DNA of 64,000 bases from Devosia sediminis (lineage in GTDB: Bacteria > Pseudomonadota > Alphaproteobacteria > Rhizobiales > Devosiaceae): assembly GCF_016411825.1 (NCBI RefSeq), contig NZ_JAEKMH010000001.1, forward strand, positions 434,001 through 498,000, given 5' to 3'. The position numbers and the translations under genes are program-made. Each line of letters opens with the position of its first letter. Position 1 is the stretch's first letter. The notes beneath the pieces were generated by a model. That model ran no database searches, was not told where the DNA came from, and was given only the letters and a program-made list of their open reading frames with translations. Positions 7,373 to 32,211 of this stretch are shown piece after piece.

Positions 7373-7487
7373 CCCCCCACCCGGCCTCCCCCTGAAGAAG
7401 GGGGAGGAGCAGATTTGGGTGTTCGCGGAGATCGAAGCAAGCCCGATCCGTCCCTCCCCCTGTTTCAGGGGGAGGCTGGGTGGGGGT
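7373..7487. repeat. MITE-like palindromic element, copy 1
   Basis: A 115-bp unit bounded by ~21-bp inverted ends: the left end CCCCCCACCCGGCCTCCCCC and the complement of the right end ACCCCCACCCAGCCTCCCCC differ at two places. Each end continues into a CCTCCCCC/GGGGGAGG hairpin. Related units occur at 8340-8473 and 31142-31290. There is no coding frame of note. Confidence 0.7.
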
Positions 7488-7567
7488 TCTTGTACAGAGG
7501 AACGATGGACCACCGGTCGAGCCGGGTGGTGACGGCCGTCATGATACCGGATGCTCCCACCACCGTC

Positions 7568-7590: not shown

Positions 7591-7636
7591 CCATCTCTCA
7601 ACCCACACGATGTTATCACCGCCTCCAAAACAGCCC

Positions 7637-7940
7637 CCATACTCACCGCATCAACCGCCCAAAGATGGAGTTGCAACGATCAACTGCCCGGTGACAGTCG
7701 GGTGGGCTCTGAATCGTTACGGAGCCTGGGTCGGGGGACGGGTTGGGGCAGCAATGTCCTCCCTGGTGAAACCCTTCGCCCTGTCCCGCAGGGCCGATCG
7801 CTCCAGTGGAGCGATTGGAAGGAAGAAGGCCAATGCGAGCTGCGCTCGATTGGCTCATCGGCCGGAAATCCCGATGCCTCGAGGCGCCCCGCGTCTCACT
7901 ACTTAATTACTCGGAGGCGAAGAGCGTCTCGAGGCACCGT
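7637..7940 (+). repeat. Dispersed ~305-bp structured repeat, copy A
   Basis: This stretch matches, in reverse orientation, 30773-31085. The core (about 7662-7875) is nearly identical; the ends are more diverged. Stem-loops kept in both copies include ATCGCTCC-AGT-GGAGCGAT (7797-7815), a CGAGC-TGC-GCTCG stem extended by GCCAAT/ATTGGC (about 7829-7854) and a long-range CCTCGAG/CTCGAGG pairing. Copy A ends 33 bp before the ArsR promoter. Short open frames cross it but are not conserved between copies in a convincing way. With the preceding bases (7334-7636) it explains the gene-free gap. Confidence 0.85.
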
Positions 7941-28549: not shown

Positions 28550-30535
28550 TCAGAGCGCGATGCGGTAGATGCCGAAGCCTTCGGCATTAGTCTCGCCGGT
28601 CGCCTCGATGCTGACGGCCGTCACGTCAGCGACCTTGTCGGCAGCCTTGGGACCGGTGGCGAAAAGCACGGTGGTGTCGCCGATCGGGGCGAGGGACCAG
28701 TTGCTGTCGGCCTTGGGATCGATCGTGCCGTTCTCGATAATGTAGCGAACAATGATGTCGCGGTTGGTATCGGGACCGATGAAGACGATCTTTTCGGCAT
28801 TGATGCCCGGGAAGGAGCCGCCGCCGCCGGCACGGTAATTGTTCGTTGCGACGATGAATTCCTGGGCGGGATCGATGGGCTCACCGTTGTACTGAAGATC
28901 GACGATGCGGCTGGCATCGGCGTTTTCCAGGGCGCCGCCATCGGCAGCGTATTTGGAGGGCTGGGTGAGGTCGATCTTATAGGTCACCCCGTCGATGACG
29001 TCGAAATTGTAGGACGGGAAGGCCGGATTGATGAGTTCGGCGTCGGTGGCGCCGGCCTCGACCTGGTTGAAGATGCCGGCCGACCGCTCCAGCCATTCCT
29101 TGACATCGGCGCCCGTGATTTTCACCGCCTGGATGGTGTTGGGATAGAGGTAGAGATCGGCGACATTCTTGATGGCGACCGGGCCGACGGGGACGTCGGT
29201 ATAGTATTCCGGACCGCCGCGGCCGCCGGACTTGAAGGGGGCGCCGGCCGAGAGGATCGGCAGGCCTTCCCACTCGGTGCCCTTCATCATCTGCTCGATG
29301 TACCAGGACTGGGCCTGGGTCACGATCTGAATGGAGGGGTCATCGGCCACAAGGGCGAAGTAGGAGTGGAGCGGAGCAGAGGTCTCGCCGACCGGGCGAC
29401 GGATATAGTCGAGCGTTTCCTTGTGTTCCGTTTCGACTGACGCTTCGACCTCGGGGACCGACTCGACGGTGGGGACGTTCTTGTTATCGACACGTTCGAC
29501 GATGGGGCGGGCTTCCGAGGTATGGGAGACCACAGTCCAGTTGCCGTCCGCATCGACTTCGAGCAGCAGGTCGACGAGGCCCATATGCGAGCCCCAGAAG
29601 CCGGGCATGACGGCCGGCTTGCCATTGAGCGTGCCGGCGGCGATGTCGACGCCTTCGATGCCCTCATAGTTCGGGCCGGGAAAGACCAGGTGATGGTGGC
29701 CGGTGAGGACAACATCGATGCCTTCGACGGCTGCGAGCTGCAGCGAGGCGTTTTCCATGCCGGGGACGTGCTCGCCGCCCTCGATGCCGGAATGGGAGAG
29801 GGCGACGATGATCTGGGCGCCTTCTTCGCGCATTTTCGGCACATAGGCCTGGGCCGTTTCGACGATGTCGCGGACCACGACCTTGCCGGTCAGGTGGGTG
29901 GCGTCCCAGGTCAGGATCTGCGGCGGCAGGAAGCCGATAACGCCGATCTTGATGGTGTGGGTGGCGCCCGACCCGTCGGTCAGTTCCTTTTCGAAGATGC
30001 GGTAGGGCTCGATATAGGTCTCGTCGGACAGGGCATCGGCACCCAGTTCGGCACCGCGCACCAGATTGGCCGAGACGAAGGGGAAGTTGGCGCCTTCGAG
30101 CGCCCGGTCGAGGAATTCGAGACCGTAGTTGAATTCGTGATTGCCCAGGGTCGCGGCGTCGTAGCCCAACGTATTGAGGGCAGCGACGGCCGGGTGGATG
30201 TCACCCTGGTTGAGGCCCTTTTCATAGGCCATGTAGTCGCCCATGGGGTTGCCCTGAATCAGGTCGCCATTGTCGAACAGCACGGCATTGCCGGCTTCGG
30301 CGCGGATCTCCTCGATGATGGCGGCGGTGCGCGCCAGACCCATCGTGTCGTTGGGCGCGTCGGCATAATAGTCATAGGGAAGAATGGCGACGTGGATATC
30401 GGTCGTCTCGATGATGCGCAGATGGGCCTGGTTGGCTTGGGCCAGCACCGCGAATGGGTGCATGGCGACCATGGCGCCAACGCTGGCCGAACCGGCCAGG
30501 AAGCTGCGCCGGGAAATGCTCGGGAAGAAATTCAT
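28550..30535 (-). CDS. cpdB: 2',3'-cyclic-nucleotide 2'-phosphodiesterase / 3'-nucleotidase
   Basis: 661 residues. A twin-arginine signal (SRRSFLAG, residues 8-15) sends the folded protein to the periplasm. The metallophosphatase domain follows with [28 protein letters not shown] and the GHHH block that hold two metals, then the C-terminal 5'-nucleotidase domain ([13 protein letters not shown]). It releases nucleosides and phosphate from cyclic nucleotides. ATG 30535 with GGAGAC upstream. A Pho box sits about 180 bp upstream (30712-30728), so phosphate starvation probably induces it. Confidence 0.95.
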
Positions 30536-30711
30536 GATCGTCTCCAACTGAGTGCCTCAAGGCCGGGGGCGTGCTCCCGGACTGCCGGTTTTCGACCGGT
30601 TCTTGGCGCTCCCCGTGTCGATCGGGAGCAGAGCGTGCATGCCCGGTTCTGGTGACGGGCGCATGACGGCTGGAGGGGGACGCTAGGGAATTTTTACCGG
30701 CTGGTCAATTT

Positions 30712-30728: not shown

Positions 30729-30772
30729 CGGCATGGCGTTATGCCGGATGGCGGTGACGCCTCCGGGTCTGC

Positions 30773-31085
30773 GTGTTCGATGGAGCCCCGAGACAACTTC
30801 CGCCTCCTGAGGTTTGGATTGGTGAGATGCAAGAGGTCTCGGAGCGTCGGGATTTCCGGCCGATGAGCCAATCGAGCGCAGCTCGCATTGGCCTTCTTCC
30901 TTCCAATCGCTCCACTGGAGCGATTGGCCCCGCGGGACAGGGCGAAGGGTTTCACCAGGGAGGACATTGCTGCCCCAACCCATCCCCGGACCCAGGCTCC
31001 GTAACGATTCAGAGCCCACCCGACTGTCACCGGACGGTTGATCGTTGCAACTCCATCTTTGCCCGGTTGATGCGGGAGTATGAGG
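30773..31085 (-). repeat. Dispersed ~305-bp structured repeat, copy B
   Basis: Reverse-oriented partner of 7637-7940. Core stem here is CCAATCGCTCC-ACT-GGAGCGATTGG (30903-30927), perfect over 11 bp where copy A has one mismatch. The distal stem pairs CCGAGAC with GTCTCGG, while copy A pairs a different sequence at the same place. Copy B ends about 45 bp before the Pho box and reads in the same direction as cpdB. With the MITE-like element at 31142-31290 it accounts for the 30536-31299 gap. Confidence 0.85.
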
Positions 31086-31141
31086 GAAGATGCAGGGGCG
31101 GGGATAAGTTTGTGGGGTCGGCTTAGAACCCGCTGCGTGGG

Positions 31142-31290
31142 CACCCCCACCTAGCTTCGCTATGGCCTGAAGGCCAAGCTGCGCTACCTCCCCCGTCAAG
31201 GGGGAGGTGACAGATCGAGTTTGTCGGAAGGCTTGTGCAAACACCGATTGGCTCCTCCCCCTACTCCAGGGGGAGGTTGGGTGGGGGTGT
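31142..31290. repeat. MITE-like palindromic element, copy 3
   Basis: Bounded by CACCCCCACC on the left and its complement GGTGGGGGTG region on the right, with two CTCCCCC/GGGGGAG hairpins inside. The left 67 bp (to 31208) closely match 8340-8405, including TAGCTTCGCTATGGCCT. It lies just past the stop of kdgK and may act as its terminator. Confidence 0.7.
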
Positions 31291-31299
31291 TTACCGGGG

Positions 31300-32211
31300 T
31301 CAGCCCTGCACCAGCTTCGGATCCACCAAGGCGCCCTTGTGGCCGATGACGATGCCGGCGGTGCGGTGGGCGGCTTCGGCGGCTTCGCGGAGGGATTTTC
31401 CGTTGAGGCGGGCAGAGAGGTAGGCGCCGTTGAAACTGTCGCCGGCGCCGGTGGCGTCGACAACCTTGGCGCCGGAGGGCGGGGCGACGCGGACGCGCTC
31501 GTGGGCGGTGGCGATCAGGGCTTCCTTGCTGCCGTCCTTGACCACGACTTCCTCGACGCCGAGTTCAAGGTAGCGGTCGGCGGTGTCGTCGACACTCTTG
31601 TCGCCGAAGAGCGGGGCTTCGTCGGTATGGGTCGGCAGGACGATGTCGCAAAGGCTGGCGGCGGCAGTGAGCACGCCGGCCATGACTCGGGGCGATGACC
31701 AAAGCGCGGGACGGAGGTTGGTGTCGAAGGCAATGCGGGCGCCATTGTCGCGCGCCTTGACGATGGCGCCGAGCAGGCGGCCGCGGGCGCGGGGTGCGAG
31801 AATGGCGAGGGTGATGCCGGAGAAATAGACAAGCTCGGCGCCTTCGACGGCCTTGGCGAGGGCCTGCTTGTCGTCGGCGAGCAACTTGGCAGCGGAGGTG
31901 TCGCGCCAATAGGTGAAATGACGGTCGCCCTTTTCCTGATGGATCATGTAGAGCCCGGGGCGACGATTGGGGATGGTCTGGATGTGGCCGGTGCCGATGC
32001 CGTTGTCGTCGAGGAAGGCGCGGATGTCGTTGGAGTAGCGGTCTGCGCCGAGGGCGGTGACATAGTCGACGGACCAATCCTGGCCGAGCAGGGCGCGCAG
32101 GTACCAGGCGGAATTGAGCGTGTCGCCGGCATAGCCGAGACGGTAGGAGCGATCCTCGCCACCGCTCATCTCGATCATGCATTCCCCGATGGACACGATG
32201 CGCTTGGTCAC
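31300..32211 (-). CDS. kdgK: 2-dehydro-3-deoxygluconate kinase
   Basis: 303 residues of the PfkB sugar-kinase family. It begins IVSIGECMIEMSGG, has GYAGDTLNSAWYLRAL for substrate and ends in the PfkB signature DATGAGDSFNGAYLSARLNG with the catalytic Asp; NRRPGLYMI and TYWRDTSAAKLL match KdgK. It phosphorylates KDG to KDPG in hexuronate breakdown. GTG start at 32211 with AGGAG upstream. Divergent from a fructuronate/mannitol dehydrogenase gene, which supports a sugar-acid role. Confidence 0.9.
   Translation of the reverse strand: MTKRIVSIGECMIEMSGGEDRSYRLGYAGDTLNSAWYLRALLGQDWSVDYVTALGADRYSNDIRAFLDDNGIGTGHIQTIPNRRPGLYMIHQEKGDRHFTYWRDTSAAKLLADDKQALAKAVEGAELVYFSGITLAILAPRARGRLLGAIVKARDNGARIAFDTNLRPALWSSPRVMAGVLTAAASLCDIVLPTHTDEAPLFGDKSVDDTADRYLELGVEEVVVKDGSKEALIATAHERVRVAPPSGAKVVDATGAGDSFNGAYLSARLNGKSLREAAEAAHRTAGIVIGHKGALVDPKLVQG

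Follow-up and report, generated by a model that had tools for sequence, protein, structure and literature searches.

Cuckoo RNAs (CcsR) are tandem small RNAs with anti-Shine-Dalgarno loops, arranged together with a small protein gene. CcaF1, a DUF1127 protein of Rhodobacter, is presented as an RNA-binding protein in the account used here (PMC10253847). REPINs appear in the account used as mobile DNA of a miniature, non-autonomous kind, and one Pseudomonas genome has three RAYT genes, each with a REPIN cluster next to it (PMC3116915); the MITEs and Br-REP of Bradyrhizobium appear in theirs as repeated intergenic stem-loop elements (PMC5082802; PMC2229807). Here we describe two homologous stretches, copies A and B, in a 64,000-nucleotide stretch of the Devosia sediminis genome (the window), which belong to an apparently undescribed, dispersed RNA family of Devosiaceae; a literature search found no description of it. 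Like the Bradyrhizobium MITEs and Br-REP, the Devosia element is repeated, intergenic and stem-loop forming and, like CcsR and CcaF1, it combines a small protein gene with putative sRNAs in Alphaproteobacteria.

Copies A and B are composites of two repeats

Copy A (7637–7940, forward strand) and copy B (30773–31085, reverse strand) had been annotated as inverted homologues with a nearly identical core of about 210 bp, which was borne out by 267 identities in 304 aligned bases (87.8%), 204 identities in the best 210 columns and a BLAST e-value of 9.9e-109 for A against B in their own genome (G000). A third full copy lies at C10:533857–534157 (87%). In all, 32 matches to the A/B query were found in the genome at e-value ≤1e-3, and the outer element of the A/B type, defined below, has nine copies there. 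Homology within the annotated bounds therefore stands, but their extent does not, as an upstream TTATC box (at 7613 in A and at 31107 in B) marks the start of both copies, and the 3′ tail of B is traceable by eye as far as about 30735. As far as traceable by sequence reading and BLAST, the whole composites span 7613–7940 (forward) in A and 30735–31107 (reverse) in B.

The BLAST matches of A and B within G000 fall into two sets, one covering query positions 1–136 plus 225–302 and the other about 138–218, and since these sets cover different parts of the query, A and B are each an OUTER element with an INNER palindrome of 80 bp inserted. The INNER palindrome is dispersed independently, and INNER and OUTER are two unrelated repeats. 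The first-pass annotation had not foreseen this composite, nor the promoter-like boxes, the tie to a protein gene elsewhere in the genome and the variable presence between species that are described below. The INNER repeat (CAAATCGCTCCAGTGGAGCGATTTG plus GGCCATGAGAGC..GCTCGAATGGC) is abundant, occurring at 7775–7854 of the window and at about 30 further places in the genome, and it sometimes adjoins or sits within the OUTER element. The GCTCC/GGAGC hairpin ascribed to the element is indeed present, but it is carried by the inserted palindrome with its own dispersed copies rather than by the OUTER unit, and the mismatch reported in A is a real difference that amounts to a G.T wobble where B has an A-T pair.

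In A, B and the third copy the INNER repeat has the same junctions, and this shared insertion indicates that the composite itself was copied. A fourth copy in the genome (C8:1365922) has another INNER copy beside the 3′ hairpin, and three copies in a related genome (G063) contain the INNER repeat with other junctions. The differing junctions of the three copies in G000 and the three in G063 point to independent insertions, with at least two composites later multiplied as units.

Other short intergenic repeats, of the type CCTCCCCC..GGGGGAGG..GGTGGGGGT, lie near A and B (7455–7490; 31160–31290), and similar ones occur at sites in relatives. The neighbours of B are a PfkB-family gene (31303–32211) and a 5′-nucleotidase-type gene (28553–30547).

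Promoter-like boxes and predicted fold

From 5′ to 3′, the element opens with a TTATCC-like box and, some 19 nt on, a TANNNT-like box, with the structured domain following after a few bases. The OUTER unit consists of a closing stem around hairpin P2, a P4 hairpin with a loop complementing the P2 loop, a variable middle, a 3′ hairpin and a tail; by reading, the 3′ hairpin is long and has an A+T-rich loop, and the tail behind it forms a smaller hairpin. In A, on the forward strand, the box pair TTATCA–19 nt–CATACT (7613–7643), read in the sequence and covered by lenient and strict pattern tests, precedes the closing-stem region and P2 (7649–7695; P2 loop CAACGAT at 7674–7680). Hairpin P4 (7704–7727, loop AATCGTTA), identified by sequence reading, consensus fold and loop test, provides the kissing complement ATCGTT (7713–7718) to AACGAT (7675–7680) of the P2 loop. 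It is followed by the INNER repeat, which forms two hairpins and has approximate borders, and by the 3′ hairpin of the OUTER element (7876–7935) with an 11-bp stem, supported by sequence reading and the consensus fold. In B, on the reverse strand, sequence reading and the pattern test place the box pair TTATCC–19 nt–CATACT at 31077–31107, reading and the consensus fold place the 3′ hairpin at 30785–30845, and the tail hairpin CCGGAGGCG..CGCCATCCGG is read at 30743–30766; tails like it follow many copies. The closing stem is damaged in A, where only a 6-pair run in another register is left, and short in the third copy.

Of the 59 distinct full-length copies, 57 fit a lenient box pattern, and in 41 the spacing is exactly 19 nt; 200 tail shuffles gave 14.5 fits on average and 22 at most. 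The strict pattern TTATCC-N18-20-TANNNT was found in 35 of 59 (shuffles: mean 2.4, maximum 6). A consensus fold (RNAalifold, 12 uninterrupted copies from three genomes) contained 56 pairs, of which 20 were changed on both sides. Because the columns of a MAFFT alignment across subfamilies were off by one in places, stems and loops were tested sequence by sequence in 42 representatives (41 usable for loops and 39 for the closing stem, L102–L104 being dropped), and the motifs and windows of the stem, loop and box tests were picked after viewing the sequences. Across 39 divergent representatives, which have 37 different 5′ arms, the run of pairs in the closing stem averaged 7.85 with G-U counted; arm swapping gave 6.03 (highest of 200, 6.70) and shuffling 6.01 (highest, 6.56). 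Complementarity between the P2 loop and the downstream stretch averaged 5.95 bases over 41 representatives, against 4.85 for swapped (maximum 5.33) and 4.57 for shuffled sequences (maximum 4.98), and reached six bases or more in 26 of the 41 and four or five in the other 15. In the types placed in the MAFFT alignment, this complement is the P4 loop. Kissing versions include AACGAT, AACGAC, GCGACC, GCGAAC, AGCGAC, CATGCGAAC and TGCAGCGAC; no convincing kiss was found in L073, L098 and L175. The closing stem is in part mutually exclusive with a long-range P1 and with P3; no pair of the long-range P1 proposed by RNAalifold was changed on both sides, for which reason the local closing stem was preferred.

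These family-wide data, in which arms and loops covary, support selection on structure. The first-pass annotation had argued for such selection from A and B, which by themselves are weak evidence. Its distal stem with different pairings in the two copies (CCTCGAG/CTCGAGG and CCGAGAC/GTCTCGG) reduces to a single helix, that of the 3′ hairpin, paired in two registers, and by inspection this stem offers only about one compensatory pair between A and B. Single-strand folding energies lie moderately below those of shuffles (z −3.7 for A and −2.6 for B), and for either copy one shuffle in 100 did as well.

Searches of Rfam 15 at the gathering score returned 0 matches in the window, and in e-value searches with 601 bases of L003 and with 20 family loci all matches overlapping the RNA scored below the gathering score. 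The only candidates were weak or flanking, among them sub-threshold cspA matches downstream and one Guanidine-II match in a flank. The latter is a riboswitch match in L078 (3155–3205, reverse strand) with 35 bits against a gathering score of 32.

Distribution and genomic setting

A covariance-model search of Devosia and of the wider order, as suggested by the first-pass annotation, was carried out with a model of the family (R1), some matches to which consist of the 3′ hairpin only. Matches were found in 63 of the 75 genus genomes. Of 397 genomes sampled across the order, 12 had a match, and these 12 belong to four genera of a single family. The copies lie almost entirely outside predicted genes: 93 of 94 core matches, among which some loci are orthologous or overlapping entries, are intergenic, with an overlap of ≤20 bases with genes predicted by our own codon-usage gene caller. 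With covariation present as well, neither of the two refuting outcomes named in the first-pass annotation was seen. A reading frame spanning the element was considered and rejected, the single match overlapping a gene by >20 bases being L124 (33 bases). We regard the reality of the family and of its structure as almost certain.

A protein-coding gene linked to the RNA

Gene X was first found as an upstream protein common to sixteen loci in sixteen genomes. It is present in 50 of the 75 genus genomes, with one locus each except for two in G034 and with one gene in two pieces in G084, and in 8 of the 397 order genomes, from two genera of the family. Titles of X-bearing records name Devosia in 27 of 30 cases, the rest being 'Rhizobiales bacterium', 'Alphaproteobacteria bacterium' and a bin labelled Opitutus. 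The X of this last bin (L190, JANPZY010000001.1) is identical to that of a Devosia ginsengisoli bin, and the record is probably mislabelled or contaminated.

Of the 30 best-scoring X loci, 29 have a same-strand R1 match downstream of X, at a distance of about 0.9 kb in L169 and as the 3′ hairpin only in L179. At the one remaining locus, L165 (G035), the end of X is altered and R1 gives no match; the X frame there extends into other sequence, as if the RNA had been lost from a parental locus. The final part of the X frame contains the box in several genomes (for example L173, L175, L176 and L180). Across the 75 genomes, X and RNA occur together in 50, X alone in 0, RNA alone in 13 and neither in 12 (Fisher p = 2e-7, uncorrected for phylogeny), a value that overstates the case owing to shared ancestry and some incomplete genomes, since among the 25 genomes lacking X four are 70–85% complete and two about 60%. 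Genomes with no X hit can hold numerous R1 matches (18 in G063, 18 in G001, 21 in G092 and 10 in G071), per-genome counts being too high because R1 also picks up the 3′ hairpin on the opposite strand.

X has dN/dS values of 0.18–0.43 in 12 of 13 pairs, some sequences being shared between pairs; the outlier, L183–L186 (1.47), involves a matched L186 stretch that contains a stop. Searches of Pfam, NCBIfam, PHROGs and PDB sequences revealed no convincing relative (best e-value 0.0068, for one of 24 members), and no nuclease or transposase match was found in these profile and sequence searches. Helices dominate the AlphaFold model (pLDDT 85.4, pTM 0.62), which also has a small sheet; the helix at the C terminus is long. 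The best Foldseek e-values of the model were 1.8 in the PDB and 0.6 in a viral library, and its best VIA Z score, 6.0 to a DinB-like bundle followed by Csm2-type bundles, was not distinctive.

The six copies of the A/B type in G000 that were compared match the X-linked RNAs of G072, G062 and G028, while the RNA beside the X of G000 itself ranks 23 or gives no hit for those six. The own X-linked RNA is the best match for 14 of 52 dispersed copies and ranks 2–9 for the rest outside G000. Overall, we consider it likely that X is the partner of the RNA.

In two genomes, twin reverse transcriptases lie between X and a lepA-like gene that was recognised by eye (G000:C10:281500–290500, L256; G008:C1:203000–213000, L257). 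In G000 they are Drt3a and Drt3b of a DRT type 3 defence system, with Drt3a partial as called, and in G008 Drt3b was confirmed; the Drt3 pair beside X in these genomes is taken as a local hot spot.

Presence and absence at orthologous sites

The joined flanks of three copies from G009 were sought in ten genomes and the sites aligned. L136 is absent at the orthologous site in G014 and G075, where flank spacing is 277 and 264 bp compared with 581 bp in G009. L130 is absent in G075, G005, G095 and G035, and also in G014, whose longer site has no R1 match. When R1 was run on these site stretches, it recovered the element in the five filled ones and, in the other seven, gave no hit better than an e-value of 0.02. 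One RNA type is shared by G009 and G075 at the L133 site, while G014 has another body between a like promoter and a like 3′ hairpin. Other repeat DNA blurs the 5′ junction at both empty sites. Copy B and copies in G027 and G009 adjoin the same nucleotidase-type gene in opposite orientation.

Neither terminal inverted repeats nor target-site duplications exceeded shuffles in 24 copies, for which the longest end matches averaged 4.9 (inverted) and 5.25 (direct), equal to shuffle level, with ends placed by motif and possibly shifted. Among candidate mobilisers, a RAYT was rejected because Y1_Tnp occurs in only 3 of 75 genus genomes, G000 not being one of them, and a reverse transcriptase as general mobiliser because RVT_1 occurs in only 22 of 75. 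Spread by plasmids or phages was likewise rejected, since X was not found in plasmids or phages (one protein query) or in viral contigs, nor the element DNA in plasmids.

A proposed RNA–protein partnership and its alternatives

By a small margin over an even chance, we favour an RNA–protein partnership in which the RNA gene spreads as a non-autonomous mobile element. A and B are two copies of a Devosiaceae-specific, dispersed and probably transcribed family of structured RNAs, one unit of which is fixed downstream of the usually single-copy X in most X-bearing genomes. X, a small and mostly helical protein, may bind the RNA, and the remaining units would be non-autonomous mobile copies spreading within the chromosome in the manner of REPINs that accompany a RAYT gene. 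One unit that received the 80-bp palindrome in its middle domain and was then copied gave rise to A, B and the third copy. Counting against the favoured reading are the poor match of the A/B-type copies compared in G000 to the RNA beside its own X, the 13 genomes with R1 matches but no X hit, the lack of a nuclease or transposase match for X in the searches above, the failure of terminal repeats and target-site duplications to exceed shuffles in 24 copies, the blurred 5′ junctions at both empty sites, the loop complements of fewer than six bases in 15 of 41 representatives, and the short closing stems of A and the third copy. That the copies are mobile elements is probable; that X mobilises them, or is needed for their movement, is rather doubtful. 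We put a lower value still on the idea that X recognises the kissing-loop fold and, by some chemistry of copying or insertion, propagates the RNA's own gene, the RNA serving as the address label of its dispersal. Body exchange between copies as the source of new RNA types, which belongs to the same reading of a new kind of two-part ribonucleoprotein, mobile or domesticated, is held just as tentatively.

The principal competitor, appreciably less probable than the favoured partnership, is a trans-acting regulatory RNA family with X as its dedicated RNA-binding protein, whose copies would have arisen by ordinary duplication and been kept for regulation rather than spread. The promoter-like box pair, the intergenic position of 93 of 94 core matches, the preserved structure and the purifying selection on X, which usually adjoins one RNA copy, would all suit such a family. 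Match numbers, however, vary widely among species of the genus, the element is absent at orthologous sites, composites with a foreign palindrome have been multiplied, and A has a damaged closing stem, as expected of an element rather than of a gene. The presence/absence and composite copying would equally be explained by a miniature element moved by an unrelated host transposase, the X-linked copy being an old insertion, and the X-less genomes rich in R1 matches (G063, G001, G092 and G071) fit this as well. We nevertheless consider it improbable, given that the 24 copies showed no terminal inverted repeat or target-site duplication above shuffles, that a survey of two enzyme families placed Y1 in 3 and reverse transcriptase in 22 of 75 genomes, and that 29 of 30 loci across a divergent genus retain the link to X, several having the box within the end of that gene.

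Selection might also act on DNA rather than RNA, through cruciforms or single-stranded hairpins in the REP/RAYT style, as hairpins can form in either nucleic acid and the element is dispersed and extragenic. Since the promoter-like boxes stand in a single orientation just ahead of the first stem, by a few bases, and 72 of 75 genomes have no Y1 transposase, we consider this very improbable.

Comparison with known systems

With regard to the favoured partnership, a close likeness is to REPINs and RAYTs, which share with the Devosia element the dispersal of extragenic hairpin elements (93 of 94 here) with a copy beside a partner gene (29 of 30). The Devosia element differs in its length of about 230–330 bp, its promoter-like boxes and its predicted kissing-loop RNA domain. 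A REPIN is an inverted REP pair; by reading, palindromes occur here in the 3′ hairpin and in the INNER repeat, and the unit taken as a whole is not an inverted doublet. The defining Y1 (HUH) partner was not found, X having no Y1_Tnp Pfam match (3, then 24 proteins); the arrangement thus resembles RAYT/REPIN but fails its defining feature. CcsR and CcaF1 differ in that X is not a DUF1127 protein (24 X proteins against Pfam-A) and that the Devosia RNA is dispersed, with a presence that varies between species. The Devosia RNA is also longer than the cuckoo RNAs. MITEs of DDE transposons are distinguished by terminal inverted repeats and target-site duplications, which did not exceed shuffle level in the 24 Devosia copies, and the accounts used of Bradyrhizobium MITEs and Br-REP name no partner gene. 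In the IscB/TnpB omega-RNA and IS110 bridge-RNA systems a nuclease or transposase lies beside the RNA; a general search of Pfam, NCBIfam and PHROGs gave no convincing match for X.

Rfam thus fails to recognise a repeated RNA family that changes fast and occurs in most of the species sampled from one genus. As its stem and loop sequences change together and fast, the genus may serve as a natural experiment on RNA–RNA kissing and RNA–protein co-evolution. If the favoured partnership is correct, Devosia would harbour a bacterial dispersed element made of a transcribed, folded RNA and an uncharacterised partner, which would belong to none of the REP/RAYT, IS or group II intron kinds.
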